A stretch of DNA of 64,000 bases, taken from Antedon mediterranea. Lineage: Eukaryota > Echinodermata > Crinoidea > Comatulida > Antedonidae. The notes under the pieces were generated by a model. The model was not told the origin of the DNA, searched no databases, and saw nothing but the letters and a program-made list of their open reading frames with translations. Shown here in pieces: positions 20,901 to 61,317 of the stretch; position 1 is the stretch's first letter, and each line of letters opens with the position of its first letter. Both the position numbers and the translations under genes were made by a program. Location: assembly GCF_964355755.1 (NCBI RefSeq), contig NC_092677.1, positions 6,019,001-6,083,000 of the forward strand, given 5' to 3'.

Positions 20901-23900
20901 TCAAGTGTAGATTAATAAAGTGATAATCAATTTTGTCGAATGACATGGTTGTATTCATGAAACTCAGTCAGTGCGATAACTTACCCAACCCCTTTAACAA
21001 ATAAATGAGGATTGGTTTCTGTAACGCCATGGTCTTTACTCTTGGTTATCTGGTACCCAACGATGGTAGCTGTAGTACTACTAGCACCCATGTCATAAAA
21101 CATTATATGTTGGATTGATTTATCAAACTCTTGACGACGGAACACACCATAATTTAACGCAACTAAATAGAGAAAAAACAAAACATTCAAAAATGTATAT
21201 CATCACAACTATTATTAGACATGTCAGGTTGAGAGAGATGGAGGGTTGGGGAGAGCAATATGGCATAATGGTAAGGAATTTTTAAGAGACTACAGGAGAG
21301 GCATGGGTTCGAGACATATTGTTTGCATCCTTAGGCAAGATACTTTACGCTCATTGCATCGTCCTTCAGATGGAATGTAAAGCATTTGATCACAGTAGGC
21401 TGCCAGGAGTATGTAGAGGGCATATTTCAAATGTCCTGTTAAACTAAGGAAAATTATTAATACATTTAGTATTACTGATAAAAGTTAAGATTTTCTCTTA
21501 CCTGCAGCATTGTCATTTATAAGCTGTAATACATTCAGGCCTGCAAGTTCAGCTGCATACTTGACAGCTCTCCTCTCAGCCTGGTTGAAGTAGGCTGGAA
21601 CTGTTAGTACTACATCTTTAATAGGATGATCTAACATGTAAAAAAAGCACTTATACTTTCTATTTTCAATTGTCATATACGATTGATTGATCATATAGTG
21701 ATACTGTATTACAATTAGATTACTTATTAGATTACTTATTATTAGATTGTAAGGAAATTCTGTAATAAATAAAACATCTATTAATATTTACCAGCATATT
21801 CTTGAGAAAAATCCCTTGCTTTGCTTAGGATCATACTTAAAAGCTCTTCAGGACTGAATGCTATGTCATCATCATGTTGAAACAGAACTGAACCTATGAA
21901 CAATAAATAGAAACAAAATTCATAAATTCATGTTGTTTTTTTCTCCAAAAAAAAAAATAAAAAAATATAATGATTAAAATGCAGTAAAACATTCAAGACT
22001 CAACCTAAATAAAGTGTTTGTGTTTGCGAAAATTAATAAAACTCGCGAAATGCTGCCTTTGGTTAGTTCACCCCTAACAAGTTTTACAATAACAACCTAT
22101 TTTCCTCCTACTAAAATTATTATATAGATGAGATCTGAAGAGGTTACCTCTTGATTGTGTGATTTCGATAAACAAAGTTCAAATAAATAAAAATATAAAA
22201 AAATTCTCAAAGCCATATCGAAATACATATTTCTGAAATCTTAACAGAGGTTTCACTAACCTGTTTCTTTATCTTCAACTATATTGTAGTATGGGAATCT
22301 TTCTTTATATTTTGTAACAATCGAGTTATTAAATGACTTGCCAATGAGGTCTTGTAAATAAATATATGCATTCTTTGGATATCGAACACTCTGAAACAAA
22401 CAAAAGAACACATTGTTAGCGAGAGTAGGCCAACAGCCGCATTCAGTTCATATAAATCAAAACATCTTTAATAAGAACAAAAAACAACAAATTATAATTG
22501 TATAAAAACTAATAAGATAATGGCAAGCGGATAAAGCCCTATACTCAGATTACACCGAGCTAAGGGATTACACCGAGCTGAGGGGTTACACCGAGCTAAG
22601 GGATTACACTGAGCTAAGGAATTACACCAAGCATAGGGGTTACACTGAGCTATGGGATTACATCGAGCTAAGGTGTTACACAGAGCTAAGGAATTACATA
22701 GAGCTAAGGAATTACACCGAGCTAAGGGGTTACACCGAGCTAAGGAATTACACCGAGCTAAGGGGTTACACCGAGCTAAGGGATTACCTCGAGCTAAGGG
22801 ATTACACAAACCTAATGGGTTATACCAAGTTAAGGAATTACAACGAGCTAAGGGATTACACCAAGCTAAGGGATTACACCGAGCATAGGGATTACACTGA
22901 GCTATAGGATTACACCGAGCTAAGGGGTTACACCGAGCTAAGGAATTACACCGAGCTAAGGAATTACACCGAGCTAAGGGGTTACACCGAGCTAAGGGAT
23001 TACATCGAGCGAAGGGATTACACTAGACTTGCCCCAAGTCTGTATTATCTTCTTTTTTAATTTATTTGTTTTTATTTCGAACGCGATTTTTGTCTGAAAA
23101 TACAGACTTGTGAAACACGTATAGAAATCGATTTGCAGACCGTAAACATCCGATAATGACGTAGGTTATCATACCGTATTTGGCTATATGGGGCGGGCGG
23201 TATGTAAATATGGATTTCGAATCAACCAATGATCATTTTGTTTCAAAATGAAAAAGATCGAGACGTACGTACAGTGCTGAATGTACGATCGAGACTGTTG
23301 AAATAATAAAATCGTAATGCCAAGTTGTTTTGTTTATTAATTGTTTAGTCCTTGGCCTAGGCCTCTTTTGTAGGTCCCACTCAACTCGCACGCATGACCT
23401 GCCAAATAAAACGCCAATAAAGTAGCCCTACATACCACCACCGGCACACAACAGGGCTACACCACCACACAGAACAGGACAGGGTCTGGGTGGGAATTAA
23501 ATCAAAATTATCTCCGCGTAATAAATGATCCATTCAATGTTTGATTTGCGGAGAAGCTAGCCTATCATATCAAGACGAGTTTTCATGTTCTTGGGAAAAA
23601 ATCCCATCAAATGTTTACCAGACTACTAGGCATATAAAATAATTTCTAGCCTTCAGAAACTTTCATAAATGTACCCAAGTACACATTGTCTAAACGTAAC
23701 ATAGCGCATGCGCATCATCTTAGTTGTTGAGTCTTTGAAATTCTGAAATATGAATATTAAAACGGTGTACGAGTGAGTAGCCAATCGAATGCAGCTGAAA
23801 CTAGTCAACCGGATAATCGTATGCACCAAGAATTCTTGGTGTCAAACCATGTGACTTGTGCGTGTTTCCCCAGACGGAGTATCCAAAATCAAGTAGTATA

Positions 23901-47837: not shown

Positions 47838-50800
47838 TCATTTGGAATGATGGTGAGTTATGCTGCAGTACAATGTAGTATCTTCTGTGTGTATTATGCG
47901 ATCTTTTGAGCTACTGGAGTGACGTGCATGCCGTGTAAAATCCAGGTCAGCATAATGTAAGCCTTCTATATTCTGAAACATATTATTCAAAACATTCGAG
48001 ATTGCAATAAATGTGTATATGAATGGCAACATATTCTTTTTCAAATACAATTTAAGCAGGTGAAATATTAGTTTAATTTGTGGTTCAAGATTTAGATTCT
48101 TTTTTTTATTAAAGATGTATTGTCCCTTTGTCAAATTCCAAAAAAATTAAAATAAAAAGATTTCGAAAAAAAGTGAGTCATTTTGAAGTATCATAATAGT
48201 TATTAACTTTCACCAAAAATTTGTCAAAAAAAAAAATCATTTAACTGAAATACAGACGTTTTTTGGTTCAAAAAATAACTTTGACTTCCAGTCAAAGTTT
48301 TCGATCAAAACATATCCCATATGCAATGCGCTTATTTGGCTACTCTGTATGCATAATCATAAAACTTCCTCGCGATCTGTGTGAAAACAACTTTCAACCG
48401 TGACGAGTTGTAAACAATAAATTAGCATCATGCATAATGTATACTCATGGTTTGAAATCTTTGTTTACTTTTGCTCGCTATTTTCCAGACAAAATGTAAT
48501 CAAATTAGTTTAGCTATTAATTACGTAAAATTGTTGTTTTTGGCTCGAATTTTCGACTTAAAGTGAATAACTTTAATATTACTTTGATATGGCCAATTAA
48601 AATTTAGTATATTTTGACCTTAATTTTTTTGTGTTTCAAGGGACAATAAAGAATCAAGTAAAACAAAAATATAATAAATAATAAACTGAAATAAAACTAA
48701 AAGCAACAGAAAACATCAATATCATAATACAAGTAACAATGCTGAAAAATATTTCATAACTTAAAATAAACATCAGTTTTTAGTTTTTACACACAACAAC
48801 TTGCAAAAAATTAACTCATTTTTAAAAGTATTCTACAATTTTGCCATTAAAACAAGTTAATAGTAAGTTAATTTTTAAAATAAAGTTTCTTAATAGAGGT
48901 TTTGAATGAGAGATAATAATGAGAAAATAACATAATTCAACATACATTTTAAATTTAATAAACATTGTCTCTGGAAAGTGTGATGTGATATCTTGTCTTA
49001 GCTCCGACGCGTTAGATCGTTCACCCTCCCCAAAGTCCGGACACAACGCACAAAAAACTTCATTACTTTCCACGGAGTTTTCAATGATTGGTGAATGATC
49101 AGTAACTGAGTTATGATAAGCAAATTGTGAACCTCTATTGGTTTGTGTTACTGGATGTACTATGATGGCCATTGAAAGACTGATTTGTGGACTATGATAT
49201 ATTTTAGTATTACTTGTTTGGACTGTGTTATACTATGTGTTTACATATTTACTATTATATTTATGTCAACTTCATCACTGCTTACTTGATGCAATAAAGG
49301 AAATAAATAATAATAATAATAATAGTAATTATGCCTTACGATGTTCATAATAAGCATTATCAATGAATCATAGATGTGACAACGAAGTGTTGATGGTGAC
49401 AACGAGGTTGAGGATAAAATTAGAAGACTTTAGAATTTAAGATTTAAGCTCAAAACCTTATAGCCTGGAAAATAAATGCTTTTAACATTGCATTGAAGTT
49501 GCTTAATAAACGAAATGCAAAACTGATAAAGAAAAGAAAATAGAAATTCAATATTGAATCAAAATGAATGCAGATTACAGTTCTCATTATCTTTCTGTAT
49601 GAAATGTAAAAAAAATCAAATCAATAAATTACACTTTGTACTATGACATATGTTTTAGTGTGGAAATTAAATTGAAATGGAACTTCCATTAACAAGGAAA
49701 TGCAACTTTGTTTAGTACATTGTTAGCTGCATTGTTTTAACAAGTTTGAAAGGTTTAGCTTGTTATGGACATGTTGATTGTACTTACAAGGCTTTTCTGT
49801 GGGTAATGTTCAACTTTGTTTAAATGTCTTTCATGGTAGTTCTTTTTAGTCATTGCAACATTATCTTGACTTTGTTGTCTCTTTTTATCTATTTCGTTCT
49901 TACGGAAGGAACCTCTACTACAAACCGGTAAATTATGGTTTAAGCATAGTCTACACTAGCAAACTCCAAGTTTGTTACTGTTTGGAGAGGGTTGTGGTTA
50001 CTGGTGGATGTCCATTTGAGGTTAGCCGGAAACCTTTTTGGATTTAGAGGACTATATCCCTGGTACCATACAAATGATTGCATTTTTTGTATTTGTTAAC
50101 TTTGTATGATATCAAAATAAAATCAAAGCCATGTTATCTTCAGATGGACAACCTCAAGTAGCACATCCTTCTACAAACAGTGGCAAACTTTGTTTGCAAA
50201 CAAAAGTTAGCTAGTGTAGACAATTCTTCAGGCATTATAATTACTTATAATAATTAGGAACATTTCTAAATTATTTTGTACAGTAACTTCTATGGTTCTA
50301 AAAAATGGAAAACAAATGACAGTTATTTCACCCACTAATGTAAATCAATAAACATCTAACAGTAACCAAATCACAAAATCAAACACTTTTTTTTAGTGTT
50401 TAATCAAGTTTGGTATGTTGGTTCAGCTGGATTTTTACATTAAAACAATTTTTTTTTAAATTAAACTGAACCATTGTTAATACCAATACACAATTCACTA
50501 GCTTTTATGTTGGTTTGGTGGTTTGCTATGTTTTTTTGGAGGTTGAGCAATTATTTTTAACCACAAAATGATGTTTTACCTCTAAAATCAGTAAGTAGTT
50601 AACAACAAAAATGTATTTTTTTTTTGACATATCAAGTGTGTAGTAAACTACTCGATTCAGTAACTTTTATGTTGGTTCGATGGGGTTTGCTATGTTTTTT
50701 TTTAGAGGTTTGCGGTGTTTAGCAAGAACCTGCCAAACTGTTCTAATAATTGTATTTTATTACTGTATATTATAAATTGTAATTGTATGTAATTGATAGT

Positions 50801-53800
50801 TATGTTAATTTTAATGTTAAATTTTATTATTGTGTTTATCCAACTTTTACTATTTTTATAAATTGTAACAATTGTTGTAATTCTGCTTTTTTAACTGCAA
50901 GAACGATTGAAATAAATAAACCCTTAATTGAACCCCTTGATTAAAAATATAAATTTTTATCTTTCACTTCATGAAATTATTTGCACCATTGCACTCATAA
51001 ACATTCCTTCTTTGTATATTATAATACTAAGTGACAAAATGTACTTTTTTAAACACAGTTGACAACATATATACCAATACTTACAGAGCGTCTCTACTTG
51101 TTTTACTTTCCACGCTACCATTTGAATTCCTAAACAAAATTATAGTAAATATAAATAAATGTAAACATACAAAAGCTACAAAAAACTTAAGATGTGCATT
51201 TTGAGTTAAAAATCCCCTTTTGGTATATCAATAACCACTAAATCCTCATGGAAGGACAGGAAGAACAAAGAATCCATAAAATTAAGATATTACCATAACA
51301 GAGATGATGGCGCACCATTGTAAATACCCTTGAGTGCACTGCATCTAACACACTCTGACTTGTGCGTTATTTGTATACTGCTGTAGTAGGCCTACAGAAG
51401 TTCAATGTGTTTACAAAAGGAAATATTAAATGCATACTTACAAAACATTTTCCCCAATACTATCATCACTTGAGCATGGAGTCGTAATTTCTTGATTTGA
51501 GCTATCAGAAAATAGTAAAATAAATCTAAAAATGTACAAAGGGTTTATGGAAATTGGAAGTTGTTTTGTTGTGAGCATAGACAAGAATTCACCCCTAATT
51601 TTTCAAAGATTTTCTAAGATTAAATCAATTACAACATATGATAGGACAGTTTAAAACTAACCCAGGTTTTGAACCTTTTTAATAATTATAAACAAAATGT
51701 GTTTTTTACGCTTTACTGTATAATTTGCTTTCCCATGCACATCATTTTCAATGTGAAAAATCTTTTGTTTTGTCTGCTTTAAATGTTATAAAACCAATTT
51801 TGCATGTTTTGCATCAAACATTTCCAAAATTGATACTAAGTAACTGTTCTCCCGAAGCAGGTTTTGTCAGCAAGATTTGCCAGACTAAATTGTCTCCAAT
51901 CGGTATTAAAAATGGTGTAAGAAAATTATATAGAAAACACTTATCTAATAGTGGTAGGTTAGGTCTAGCTATTAAAAGCATAGACCAAGAGCAATCAAAT
52001 GCTACATTTTGTCAATTGGATAGACGAAATACAATATTATTTGACTTTTTTGTATATAGTAGATTAGTTACATGTATTATCAATATTTCGGTACTTTACT
52101 TAATTTTTAAAATTTGACTTTTATATTAGAACAAGGAAAGTTTAAACCTTTCCCAGGACCATTGTGGTCATGATGTATACCCCATATGTATAGATGCACA
52201 CAATATCAAACATTTGTATTAACAACAAAAATGCTCTCTCTTATAATATAGATTATCAAAATAGTTAAAAGTGAATCCTTACCGAAATGCTTTAATCCGT
52301 ATATATCCACCTATTTTTTTAATGAAGAAAAATGAAAAATAGATATATAATAACATGCTATTTTTTTTATAATCATTCATCTTTTCATTTCGGATGACAT
52401 AATAATATATCCATAGCAAAAAAAAATTGATTTATTCATACTCTACTTTAAAAGCATGTTTCTTTTACTTGTAAATTAATTTTGAAGAACACTACCTTTA
52501 TTCACCTCATTTTTACCTAGTATTGGTTCCCCATTAATATCTGCTGTCATTTTAGTATTATAATCTGACAGGCTTTTGTCAAAAAGCCCAGTCTTTATAT
52601 TGCCTAAACCAGGCAATTGATTATGAATGAGAGCAAATACTCATGAAACATGAATTTGAAATCCCAATGATAATGAAAGTCTATGAAAACTACTGATATA
52701 AAGTGGTATTAATAATACAAGTGTACAAGGGTATTGTTAATTGCAGGTAACAGACAACCATTTCTGTCATTATTTTATAAATAATTTAATAATTAATTTT
52801 AAAATCAATTCACTGCTGTAAAAAATTCATTGCCGTCTTTAAAGATTATTAACAAAGCCTCTGAGTGTATGAAAATGGATACGATACTTACATTTCTTTA
52901 GGATGATAACAACAACGACGATAATCATTACAAGGACAAGTATTAACATAATGACCATGAAAATGGGGACTTCCCCACCTGCAAAAAAAATATTAGTATG
53001 TGGTTAAATTAAAAACATAAAAATGATACTGTAGTAATACTTTTATTCATTAAAAAAATCAGGTTGGAAAGGTATTGCACAACTTTGTCATTCAGTAGGT
53101 TAAATTGTACCACATATTATGTACACCTGAGAATACTATTACAAAATTGGAAGTTAATGGATGGGACTTGAACTGAAGACTGTGGGTTTGAAGTTTGAAT
53201 ACTATCCAAAAACAACTTTTTCTGTATTTTTAAATTACAATTGTTCAAAACATATTTAGAGGATTTTAATTCAGTATTATTACCCTGGTCATCAACTGGA
53301 TCACCTTCATAGGCACTGGTATTGGTAACCTTTCCTATAAAAGCAAACCATAAAAATAATAATTTCTACATTACAACTGAGCATTCATTCATGTGGCTAG
53401 GGATCTCACTCTTCCATGATTTAAGCTTGAAGCAATTTGACCAATCACAACATGATGGGTCATCAACCATCGCATCATGATTGATCAAATTACTTGCAGT
53501 GTGATTACGTCATTGTGTTCAAAGCAGTTTCACAGCAGTAAAATGTTCATTTTTGTATTAAAACAAGACAGACAAGATAAGCGAAAATTTATAATGGGGC
53601 ATGTGCAATATAAGTAGGCAGCGCTTAGTGTGAAGTGTTATGTAAACTGTAGTTTATATAATAAATAAATATAAATAGAATAATAAATTCTAACTGCACA
53701 TAGTTTTGATTTTTTTTTTTTACATTTTAATTGTGTCAAATTTGATCATGAGAAGGGCTCTATTAGTATAACAATCTGGTAAAAAACAATAATTAGGTTA

Positions 53801-55300
53801 TATGCATGATATGCATATATAACCTCTTGATTCTGTCAAAATCTTTATTTATTTATTTATTTATTTATTTATTCTTTCCTTAGTACTATTTTGTCCGTGA
53901 ATTATCTTGGCATCAGTTTCATCTAGCTAAGTCAAGTTTTCAGAGTATATTCCTTATGGCCAGGAATCGATGTGGTTATATTTTCACGATGCGCAATCAA
54001 AAATGACGCGGTCTACGCGCGATTTTACGAAATCACGTTTGTAATCATATCTTCACAAGCATGAATCACAATTAAACAAAATTTGGTACTCATAAATTTC
54101 AGGTAATATTTCATCATATGGCAATACAATTACGTGCGTAGCGCATATAACGCTTGCGTACGCGCGCTTAAAATGTTCAAAATTAATTTTCGATGAAATT
54201 AGAGTACGTTTCAGGCAATTTTAAGCGTTTAAAAAATTGCCATGAGTGCGCAGATTTTTGCACGCCCACTGCGCGTTAAACATTAATGCGCATTCTTTTT
54301 GCCCGATTTCTGTTTTACAATCTTTCTTTAATAATATCATCATATTTGATTCAGGTTTCAACTCGAAATTGCGTTATACGAGCACGTCAAAAGTGACTGG
54401 CTACGCACGTATAAGTTAACAAAATGGTGAAAATATGCTAAATTTTAAAATTAATATATATCGTCAGAATGATTTATTATCAAATTAAGAGAACAAAAGT
54501 TGATTAAGTCATCATTAATTGCATATTAAATTTTAAAAAAATAATTTTGACAATCAAACAAATTATGACATTTTCTTAGGCCAAAATAACAAACTTAACA
54601 TTAACTTTCTTCCTTCAAAAGTTCATATATTAAAGTTAAAAGTATGTAGTTTGACAGTGCATCATTTGTTTACATTTTAAAGATCTCATTATAGTAAAAA
54701 ATTATAATTCATTTCGGTATGTAATAATCTATTTTCACCAAAGTGGTTACTGCATAGTAAATACACGGAGGAATTTTTCTACAACTTTTAGTCAGTTGTG
54801 TATGGCTCGATGGTCTGTGCTCGTGTCTATGGCATTCAAGGTACCGAGATCGAGTCTCACCTTGGGAAACGAAATAAGATTTTTTTTTATTATCCGTATT
54901 GTTTTTTCTAATTTATTTCTTAGTGTATAGATTATACACATGATTTCTAATGAAATCTAGATAAAAATTAATTTGTGTCTTTATTATTATGTAACAACAA
55001 ATGTGGTTTATGACATTATACGCATATGGATCTTTGATCGGATTGTGATACCGGCTATGGTGTTCGCGTTAGCAAGGTCCTATCATATATTATAAATAAT
55101 TAAAGATTCTGAGAAAATCAATCAATCAATATATCTTTTAAAAATCAATTATCTTTATTTAAATCAATGCATATAACCTATAATTCGTCATAGTGACGAA
55201 TTAAATCTAGTTTTATAATTAATTTTGTTAGTATTTTGTATTATTAAAAAAATACATTAAATACACGTACCATCCTCCACAGATGGTGAGACGCTTGAAC
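47838..55300 (-). CDS. Single-pass membrane protein with ITIM and ITSM-like tail, 5' end missing
   Basis: Exons in transcript order: 55271-55300, 53284-53334, 52892-52978, 52283-52310, 51442-51501 (or to 51525), 51085-51129, one beginning at 49179, and last 47838-47972. A short Ser/Thr-rich extracellular stalk (SSVSPSVEDGKVTNTSAYEG) leads to a strong transmembrane helix (IFMVIMLILVLVMIIVVVVIIL) and a juxtamembrane KKC, a possible palmitoylation site. The hydrophilic cytoplasmic tail ends with LHYADLDF (ITIM, L-x-Y-x-x-L) and TLYCSI (ITSM-like, T-x-Y-x-x-I), a pairing like that in Siglec-type receptors. Junctions up to the 49.2 kb exon keep frame. The donor of that exon is unresolved because the best one (near 48944) does not match the last exon's phase. 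No ATG exon or ectodomain was found, so it is either a tiny-ectodomain adaptor (LAT/SIT/PAG style) or a receptor whose 5' exons lie elsewhere. I do not recognise an orthologue. Confidence 0.6.
48100..48656. mobile_element. MITE with inverted ends in the last intron of the ITIM gene
   Basis: Left AAAGATGTATTGTCCCTTTG...AAAAAAATTAA is mirrored by TTAATTTTTTTGTGTTTCAAGGGACAATAAAGAATC on the right. A related word (TTAAAGATGTAATGTCCC) occurs at 600-617. Confidence 0.75.
49945..50224. mobile_element. Fold-back MITE in an intron of the ITIM gene
   Basis: AGTCTACACTAGCAAACT at the left and AGTTAGCTAGTGTAGACAAT at the right are inverted. Internal GCAAACTTTGTTTGC is itself palindromic. Confidence 0.75.
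50500..50715 (+). repeat. Two-copy ~50-bp direct repeat
   Basis: CTTTTATGTTGGTTTGGTGG-TTTGCTATGTTTTTTTGGAGG near 50501 recurs as CTTTTATGTTGGTTCGATGGGGTTTGCTATGTTTTTTTTTAGAGG near 50668. Confidence 0.7.
53795..55179. mobile_element. Candidate DNA transposon remnant, 1.4 kb, in an intron of the ITIM gene
   Basis: A perfect 13-bp inverted end AGGTTATATGCAT / ATGCATATAACCT is flanked on both sides by ATAATT (53789-53794 and 55180-55185). The interior is CpG-richer than its surroundings (GACGCGGTCTACGCGCG, GCGTAGCGCATATAACGC) and contains a tRNA-like segment near 54795-54868. The AT-rich flanks make the 6-bp duplication weak evidence. Confidence 0.55.
54790..54872 (+). mobile_element. tRNA-like SINE remnant
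   Basis: GTATGGCTCGATGGTCTG resembles an A box and GAGATCGAGTCTC a degenerate B box, followed at some distance by T8. No complete cloverleaf. Confidence 0.4.
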
Positions 55301-58560: not shown

Positions 58561-59045
58561 TGGTAGGATATGAGCCAGGTTTTTCTGTGACTTTTTTTTA
58601 TGATTCTCATTCATATGGGATTATGGGGGCTATGAAGGCAGTACATAGGCAAGTACAGCACTTTGAAGTGCTGTAGGTCTTGTTTGTCTGTTAAAGATAG
58701 TCTTTAGGTTTACCATCTCATAAGTCATACCCTCTAAAAACTGATGTGCTTAGTAACCTATACTAGTACTACACAGACAAGCATATTATAAACTGTATAA
58801 ACTAAGTAAGCCTAAATCTACTTTAACCTTACGTTAAAATGACAGTCAATTCTCAGCTGTATCACAAATTTCATTTTCAATTTCAAATAATTTTCCCTCA
58901 AAACAGAAGTAATGTTATTAGCAAGTGTACTCACTCAATACTTGTGGTATACATTGTGTACAGTAAATAAGTGCATTTTGATTTTATAGCTATTCAAATT
59001 CTAGTTTTTTTTTAAACTCTAGGAAGGTAATCAATCCTGAAACCG

Positions 59046-61262
59046 ATGGCACTCTCTTTTGAAGATGTGTTTAGAGATTTAAAGAAATCGTAAGTACACA
59101 TAATATGAATTATATACACATAGGGTTGATACGAGGCCTAATTCAATTATTTCCATTAAGCTTATTGATTACGTTTGACTATCATCAAATCGTTGACTTT
59201 AATTGAACTTGACTCAAATTAATAAAACCCATGTCTGTCTGTCTGTCCGGGTTTATTGAAAGACTAGGGGTTGCACGATCTTCAAACTAATAAGTAACCC
59301 TGAGGATATAGGTGAGTATGAATCTGATAAATGATGTTTTAAATTACATTTGAAACTTGCTCTGGGGTAGGTATACTTACTGGTAGATAAAAAACATTAT
59401 TACTGTATTATTATACATTCCAGATGTGGCCAATTAAAAAAGTAGAGTTAGTTAATGTTTAAAAGTGACATTCAAAATGGTAAGGTTGCAAATCTACAAA
59501 TGCAAATATTTTCTGTACAATTAAATTCGGCTGACCTATGAATATATTAATCTAGTAATTTAGTTGAATGAGAATTTTACAACCATTTTCTGACTTGTAT
59601 ATTCTTTTTATTTCAGAGGTAGAATAAGGGATGACGACTCATCAAGTGATGAAGAAACGGCTACTATCTTGACTACCACGGAAATGTAAATATTTACCAA
59701 ATTGAATTGCTCAGTTTGTAATTTTTAATTTGCATTTCATTGTATAGCCCATTTTTCTAAAAAGTTAAGCTCTTTTTCAATGTTGAATTATAAGAATTTT
59801 CTTGATTTTTGATTGTAAACACTAGGAAGACATGATGATCGTTGTTCTTCCAAACCGCTTTCAGAAAATGATTATCAAAGTTATTAGAAATACTTATATT
59901 TTTAAATAAGCAATAGAACGAAAAGTTATTGTAGTAGACTAAACACCTTTGTTAGCAATGTTGAGTACAAAATTGTGTAGTATTTTGATAAGTATTTTCT
60001 GTTAATTTCAGTGGTACAATAAGGAGTGGCAACTCATACAGTGAAGATAATTCAAACAAAACTACTTTCTTACCAACAAAAAAAATGTAAATATTTGCCA
60101 AATTAAATTGCTATTTAACATGATGCACTTGTAATTTTTAATCATGTATCTTGGAATAGTCTATTTTTCAAAAGGGACTAGGAATATTTATATTTTTTAA
60201 TAAGCAATAGAACGAAGAGTTATTGTAGTAGACTAAACACTTTTGTCAGCAATTGAAAATTGTCTAGTATTAATTATAAATTTTTTTGTTTCAGTGCTAC
60301 TGACTGTAACAAAACGTTGTTCACCAAAAAAACGTAAATATTTATTTAATTGAATGTCCATAATAAAACTGCTGATACTTTTGTTAATTGTAAACTCAGA
60401 TTGGTGGTACATAATGTTGGATGTCACTATCTCTAATAGTTTATGAGTATATTTCACTATATGTTATTTGTAAATGTTGCTACCATCCTACTGTATACTG
60501 TCATTGGGTTTAAAAATGTATATTTTTATATTATAAATTGCTAATTTTTTATTTAGATTGCGACCAGTAAAGACAGCATATGACATATTAGATGGTCTTA
60601 CATTCTGTGGTCTAAGAATTGTACGTATTTATTAACTCTTATCAAAATTAAATTATTACAGAAAACTACTGTATTTATATATATGCATAAGCAGAAATTC
60701 ATAAACGATGCCATTGTCATAAATGTCCTGATTTATTCATTTTTTTAGCCAAGATCAGATACTAAGAATAATGGTATGCAATCTGAAATTTGTATTTCAT
60801 TTTTCAATTTAGGTTCAGTTTTGTTTTCATGTCCAAAATGTTTTAAATGTTTTTTTTTTTGTGTTGATATGTTGATATTTAATAGTAACTTGAATAGTGT
60901 ATTTTTTCTTTATGATGTTAATTAAAAATAAGTATTGTTTGACTATTTTGACATCATTGGGAAATAAGATATAATTTTAAATATTGAATTTTGGTGTTTT
61001 CTTAGACATTGGTACAAACTATGGGGAAGAAGAAGAAGAAGGAACTGTAAGTATTATACCAGCATAGACTAAAATGCTTTGAAAGCTAACCTCGCCCAAA
61101 TTTTTATATGAAAAGTGTGTATCATTGTAACTGTGAAACATCCCTCAACGTCTTTTCTAATTAGTATAAAAATAGTATTTTTATGTCTTTTTTTTTTAAT
61201 AGGTATCTTATGTGGACACTTCCTATAGGCCAGATGATTCAATATCTGAAACTAGTGATGAA
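59046..61262 (+). CDS. Unrecognised Ser/Asp-rich protein with triplicated exons, 3' end beyond the model
   Basis: Eight in-frame exons: 59046-59089 (starts MALSFEDVFRDLKK), 59617-59685, 60012-60086, 60295-60333, 60557-60620, 60749-60773, 61006-61046, 61203-61262 (417 nt, 139 aa so far). All have GT-AG ends and consistent phases. The product is hydrophilic and acidic with no signal peptide or membrane segment. Motifs are SSSDEETATI (possible CK2-type sites), an uncharged block KTAYDILDGLTFCGLRIP, a run of five Glu, and RPDDSISETSDE. Exons 2, 3 and 4 are homologous to one another (GRIR../GTIR../ATD..), are all phase 2-2, and share the flanking intron word GTAAATATTT. I know no family with this architecture. 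The continuation past 61262 (GTAGGTG donor) was not found before the window end. Confidence 0.68.
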
Positions 61263-61317
61263 GTAGGTGTTATACTTTTAATGTTAATTTTGAAATCGTA
61301 TTTTGAAACTTTTAATG

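Follow-up and report, generated by a model that had tools for sequence, protein, structure and literature searches.

The window analysed here, a stretch of 64,000 nucleotides (nt) from the crinoid Antedon mediterranea (contig NC_092677.1, hereafter C8, positions 6019001 to 6083000), contains on its minus strand the exons of a putative transmembrane (TM) receptor with two tyrosine motifs in its cytoplasmic part. Between positions 55300 and 47838, nine exons with AG/GT splice sites and matching phases could be joined into a single open frame of 216 amino acids (aa) that ends at a TGA at position 47838 and encodes, in this order, a stalk, a TM helix, the residues KKC, a tail of ~160 aa and a last exon bearing both tyrosine motifs. 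These exons, and a repeat lying among them, are listed below in window coordinates; coordinates on the contig are prefixed with C8.

55271 to 55300, minus strand: stalk exon Ea, 30 nt, phase 1-1, (G)SSVSPSVED(G).
53284 to 53334, minus strand: stalk exon Eb, phase 1-1, KVTNTSAYEGDPVDDQ; G+C content above that of its flanks.
52892 to 52978, minus strand: TM exon, phase 1-1, GEVPIFMVIMLILVLVMIIVVVVIILKK(C), the Cys codon being divided over the next junction.
52517 to 52603, minus strand: cytoplasmic exon Ed, phase 1-1, NIKTGLFDKSLSDYNTKMTADINGEPIL; the exon has no support from a paralog, and an alternative donor is possible 21 nt beyond.
52283 to 52310, minus strand: micro-exon Ed2, 28 nt, phase 1-2, GYIRIKAF(R).
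51442 to 51501, minus strand: tail exon Ee, phase 2-2, SNQEITTPCSSDDSIGENV.
51085 to 51129, minus strand: tail exon Ef, phase 2-2, NSNGSVESKTSRDA.
49788 to 49914, minus strand: tail exon Eg, phase 2-0, GSFRKNEIDKKRQQSQDNVAMTKKNYHERHLNKVEHYPQKSL; the AG acceptor is tandem and a start at 49917 is also possible.
47838 to 47972, minus strand: last coding exon, phase 0 to the stop, NIEGLHYADLDFTRHARHSSSSKDRIIHTEDTTLYCSITHHHSK*, with LHYADL and TLYCSI.
48109 to 48648: high-copy repeat of ~540 bp in the intron preceding the last exon, noncoding; its copies are 92 to 97% identical genome-wide.

The G+C content of the exons ranged from 0.33 to 0.53, compared with 0.23 to 0.32 for the flanking introns, and most exons were well above their flanks; two had nearly the same content as their flanks (Ee, 0.35 versus 0.32, and Eg, 0.33 versus 0.32). 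The TM exon had a mean hydropathy of 3.85 over 21 residues, and a single Cys follows the helix, in KKCNIKTG. A preliminary description of this stretch had proposed that consistent splice phases link a stalk, a strong TM helix with a juxtamembrane Cys, a tail and a last exon carrying LHYADLDF and TLYCSI in frame; the nine exons do form one frame, in which both motifs are read. The same description had placed the final junction between 49.2 and 47.97 kb, and this part had to be abandoned. Exon Eg (49914-49788), with its phase 0 end, joins 47972-47838 directly, and the phase of the open frame at 49.2 kb (48822-49232) fits neither the preceding phase 0 exon nor the phase 0 last exon. This minus-strand frame of 136 codons (SMAIIVHPVTQTNRGSQFAYHNSV...PDFGEGERSNASELRQ) might be an alternative exon. 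A search of the genome (354 Mb, 18 contigs) with the whole 216 aa detected no full-length paralog, a PDB search with the same query yielded no significant match, and the Pfam matches to TMEM154, SIT and DUF4578 were all below their cut-offs.

The two tyrosine motifs conform to established patterns. LHYADL fits the immunoreceptor tyrosine-based inhibitory motif (ITIM; [ILVS]xYxx[ILV]), TLYCSI fits the immunoreceptor tyrosine-based switch motif (ITSM; TxYxx[VI]), and their tyrosines are 28 residues apart. When sequences were shuffled with composition kept and scored for an ITIM followed 15 to 40 residues later by an ITSM, the pair arose in 0.14% of the tails and 0.015% of the last exons. The arrangement of the predicted tail is one that, in vertebrates, turns off immune signalling. 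The earlier proposal of a phosphatase-recruiting layout, in which a type I membrane protein carries an ITIM and an ITSM-like motif, was upheld for the predicted protein, and the genome holds a gene for a SHP-2-like effector: an SH2-SH2-PTP gene is located at C3:14.0976-14.1055 Mb, and its pieces match PTPN11 best (1.2e-151 against PDB).

A genome search with the last exon detected few other places, all of them on C8, at 0.553, 0.721 and 1.075 Mb. Alignment of the four last exons revealed ten invariant columns, N, E, L, Y, A, L and D in the ITIM half and T, Y and S in the ITSM half, giving the shared pattern N-x-E-x-L-x-Y-A-x-L-D...T-x-Y-x-S-[IV]. In the related exons, the ITIM occurs as LQYADL or LAYAEL and the ITSM as TTYASI or TQYSSV. 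A phase 0 acceptor could be read from the DNA for the last exons in the window and at 0.553 and 1.075 Mb, and the exon at 0.721 Mb starts alike. Immunoglobulin (Ig) V exons are present at C8 0.557 and 0.729 Mb, and three Ig domains are encoded at 1.075-1.080 Mb; the cassette therefore occurs in both three-Ig and one-Ig genes of C8. The three-Ig gene at C8:1.07 Mb consists, after its Ig exons, of a 1-1 stalk exon, a 1-1 TM exon, a 1-2 micro-exon with KAFR at its end, a tail exon that closes in phase 0 (CT/GTAAGT) and the last exon. Order and phases are equal in the window gene, which has KAFR in common at the micro-exon and three additional tail exons. As the relatives bearing the cassette are Ig genes, and that at 1.07 Mb has equal exon order and phases, the window tail can be assigned, by sequence comparison, to an Ig superfamily (IgSF) gene family on C8.

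Candidate exons for the ectodomain were found on the same strand 19 to 22 kb past the right edge of the window (C8:6104917-6102039).

C8:6104917 (ATG; or 6104908) to 6104896, minus strand: start exon, MENMILT/G; its donor is the best one in that stretch.
C8:6103149-6102775, minus strand: Ig V exon, 375 nt, phase 1-1.
C8:6102275-6102039, minus strand: Ig C2 exon, 237 nt, phase 1-1.

The start and Ig V exons together yield a signal peptide, MENMILTGFSILVYIILISCTKA, as judged from its sequence, and all twelve exons, these three and the nine of the window, can be joined into a protein of 427 aa plus stop, for which Pfam returned Ig_3 (1.1e-11), V-set (1.4e-9) and C2-set_2 (barely above cut-off). 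The intron between the Ig C2 exon and Ea at 55300 would be 27,738 bp long. From 55300 to C8:6093000, the minus strand showed no Ig exon. A scan of C8:6101.9-6066.0 kb detected exactly one phase 1 TM exon with usable sites, that at 52978-52892, and no signal-peptide-like start exon was detected in a scan of the 27,738-bp intron; both scans used generic splice matrices and thresholds of our choosing. Upstream within the window, no start exon combined a usable donor with a signal peptide. A frame at C8:6097.6 kb containing a TM segment and LHYSI was considered as a TM exon for the upstream Ig gene and was rejected: it is part of an inverted-repeat element and did not pass the splice-site scan. 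The 27.7-kb junction is thus proposed because the phases are compatible and no alternative TM or start exon was detected. Hence, 55300 is very probably not the 5′ end of the gene, whose coding exons would continue to C8:6104917, outside the window, with Ig V and Ig C2 exons very probably preceding the window stalk. The statement in the preliminary description that no ectodomain is visible stands, as regards Ig exons, for the interval from 55300 to the window edge but not for the DNA beyond that edge. On the plus strand, a gene or gene remnant of small exons spans 59045-61265, with repeated acidic exons (MALSFEDVFRDLKK..., ...SSSDEETATILTTTEM, ...YVDTSYRPDDSISETSDE) that have no match in Pfam; their last unit is found again at C8:6086790 and 6087513.

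A paralog on the same strand, at C8:6149661-6144368, contains a start exon, an Ig V exon, two Ig C2 exons, a stalk exon, a TM exon and a 1-2 micro-exon within ~5 kb, with phases equal to those of the gene linked to the window. Its 33-nt stalk exon, CDSPKVNDD, directly follows the Ig exons and resembles SPSVED of window exon Ea. The Ig V domains of the two genes are 53% identical, and alignment from start to TM, with one Ig C2 copy of the paralog left out, gave 48% identity.

From these data, the window exons very likely make up the 3′ half of a single minus-strand gene (C8:6104917-6066838) that would encode a 427-aa type I IgSF receptor of the inhibitory type. The predicted protein would comprise the signal peptide, an Ig V domain, an Ig C2-like domain, a short stalk, a single-pass TM helix and a tail of ~160 aa, so that Ig domains, signal peptide, TM segment, ITIM and ITSM, the features of inhibitory IgSF receptors, appear in one frame. 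In such a receptor, the V domain would bind a ligand, a Src-family kinase would phosphorylate the tyrosines of LHYADL and TLYCSI, and a SHP-2-like phosphatase could then dock through its tandem SH2 domains on both motifs and dephosphorylate activating signals nearby. Phosphorylation, SHP docking, the inhibitory output, the ligand and expression in blood cells are what we infer for this protein.

Several observations weigh against this assignment. The similarity of the tail cassette is weak (E of ~0.3 to 1 genome-wide), yet the few matches are true last exons, belonging to Ig genes or to relatives of these. For exons Ed, Ee and Ef, the evidence consists of splice sites and frame, and the nearest Ig paralog, that at 6.149 Mb, has a short tail, ALYTYFEDEY, without an ITIM. 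The 27.7-kb intron is long and filled with remnants of mobile elements, and the plus-strand gene of small exons (59-61.3 kb) would sit within it; given both, the Ig exons could instead form a separate secreted or glycosylphosphatidylinositol (GPI)-anchored product. In that case, two genes or isoforms would be present, the Ig exons encoding a protein that is soluble or GPI-anchored, and those of the window serving as an occasional alternative 3′ end or being a relic of an older receptor. The transposon-filled intron and the differences in tails from gene to gene within the family agree with such an arrangement, but every one of the window exons is intact, stays in frame and has normal splice sites, both motifs are kept and the G+C content of most exons is above that of the flanks. 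A relic in AT-rich DNA would quickly acquire stops. We regard this explanation as very improbable. Somewhat different is the question of whether the tyrosine motifs are there by chance, in an ordinary IgSF adhesion molecule that does not signal through phosphatases. YxxL is a frequent motif found in many Ig adhesion proteins; against this stand the rarity of the ITIM-ITSM pair in shuffled tails (the 0.14% given above) and the recurrence of the pair, with its spacing, in the last exons of related genes, making chance a rather unlikely source of the motifs.

The preliminary description had favoured an adaptor in the style of LAT, SIT or PAG. LAT, SIT1, PAG1 and LAX1 have a single TM segment, a long tyrosine-bearing tail and a tiny ectodomain, and the window protein resembles them in its single TM segment and in its hydrophilic, tyrosine-bearing tail. 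Such an adaptor gene would start just upstream of 55300 and give a protein whose extracellular part is a short stalk only, in keeping with a minus strand devoid of Ig exons up to the window edge and with the plus-strand gene head MALSFEDVFRDLKK at ~59.05 kb, which could mark a gene boundary. This interpretation lacks a beginning, however: neither upstream in the window nor in the 27.7-kb gap was there a convincing start exon with a phase 1 end, and no in-frame ATG precedes the TM segment. Phase-matched Ig exons lie upstream, with no TM exon other than that of the window detected downstream to serve them, so that, unlike in the adaptors, the stalk very probably follows two Ig domains. Moreover, the tail exons are common to IgSF genes, the Pfam SIT match reached 14.8 bits against a cut-off of 27.6, and no CxxC palmitoylation motif follows the TM helix. 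An adaptor now appears quite improbable, and the window boundary together with the 27.7-kb intron illustrates how an ordinary receptor can be disguised as a protein without an ectodomain.

The tails of the Siglec, CEACAM1 and PD-1 families, which are vertebrate-specific, have a membrane-proximal ITIM and, ~20 to 28 residues on, an ITSM-like T-x-Y-x-x-V/I near the C terminus. The window tail has the same order and spacing of the two motifs, but the Ig exons match general Ig models alone and no specific vertebrate family. In its predicted features, the receptor bears most resemblance to NICIP of lamprey or FcoR of Botryllus, and NICIP is the closest tested protein in layout. NICIP has an IgV domain, an IgC2 domain, a TM segment and two ITIMs and binds SHP-1/2 (PMC5071834); likewise, the protein predicted here has an Ig V and an Ig C2 domain, a single TM segment and two tyrosine motifs in the tail. 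The likeness noted here is one of layout; the motifs of NICIP are two classical ITIMs with YxxL/I 17 residues apart (PMC5071834), whereas the crinoid gene has an ITIM and an ITSM-like motif with tyrosines 28 residues apart. In Botryllus, a clustered locus encodes the FcoR proteins, type I IgSF receptors that combine IgV and IgC2 domains with an ITIM-bearing tail (PMC12065747). They resemble the predicted window protein in this make-up, in their invertebrate origin and in being encoded in a gene cluster; unlike it, FcoR has a sushi domain and sits in the fuhc allorecognition locus. The Alr genes of the cnidarian Hydractinia, as described where they are cited in PMC11999971 and PMC12065747, form another large invertebrate IgSF complex with ITIM/ITAM-type motifs (ITAM, immunoreceptor tyrosine-based activation motif). 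By these citing descriptions, their V-set and I-set domains are unusual, whereas the tested domains on C8 match ordinary V, I and C2 models and the array is larger. FcoR (PMC12065747) and, as cited, Alr (PMC11999971) thus already provide examples of invertebrate IgSF receptors that are clustered and have ITIM-type motifs.

With the two Ig domains of the 1.07-Mb gene as query, at least ~150 Ig exons were detected, nearly all at C8 1.05-1.67 and 4.70-5.78 Mb; this count is a lower bound, since the best candidates alone were scored. A gene at C8:5.775 Mb ends in IQYADLDL...TPYMEV, and some tails in the C8 array bear YADLDL and TxYxxV/I. By itself, the window gene would be a further example of an invertebrate Ig receptor whose tail is of the inhibitory type; its surroundings add a dense IgSF array on one chromosome, several members with a common ITIM/ITSM cassette and an SHP-2 effector in the same genome. 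It is possible, but doubtful, that the gene belongs to a very large C8 IgSF complex (~0.4-1.7, 4.7-5.8 and 6.07-6.15 Mb), of a kind not described in this lineage, in which inhibitory ITIM/ITSM members and neighbours that resemble them in their Ig ectodomains but have other tails constitute paired receptors resembling those of natural killer cells or of allorecognition. The 6.149-Mb paralog may, for example, be a decoy or supply the activating half of a receptor pair. The age of paired inhibitory and activating Ig receptors becomes directly testable in this animal.

Elsewhere in the window, the minus strand from 8590 to 710 encodes a death-domain exon (Pfam Death, 1.7e-8), then a long Ser/Pro-rich exon and then ankyrin repeats. 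If this is one gene, its order is unlike that of NF-kB p105 and it is perhaps of the IkB/Bcl3 type with an N-terminal death domain; otherwise, two genes may be present. A minisatellite-like tandem repeat that is open in both directions occupies positions 22495-23022.

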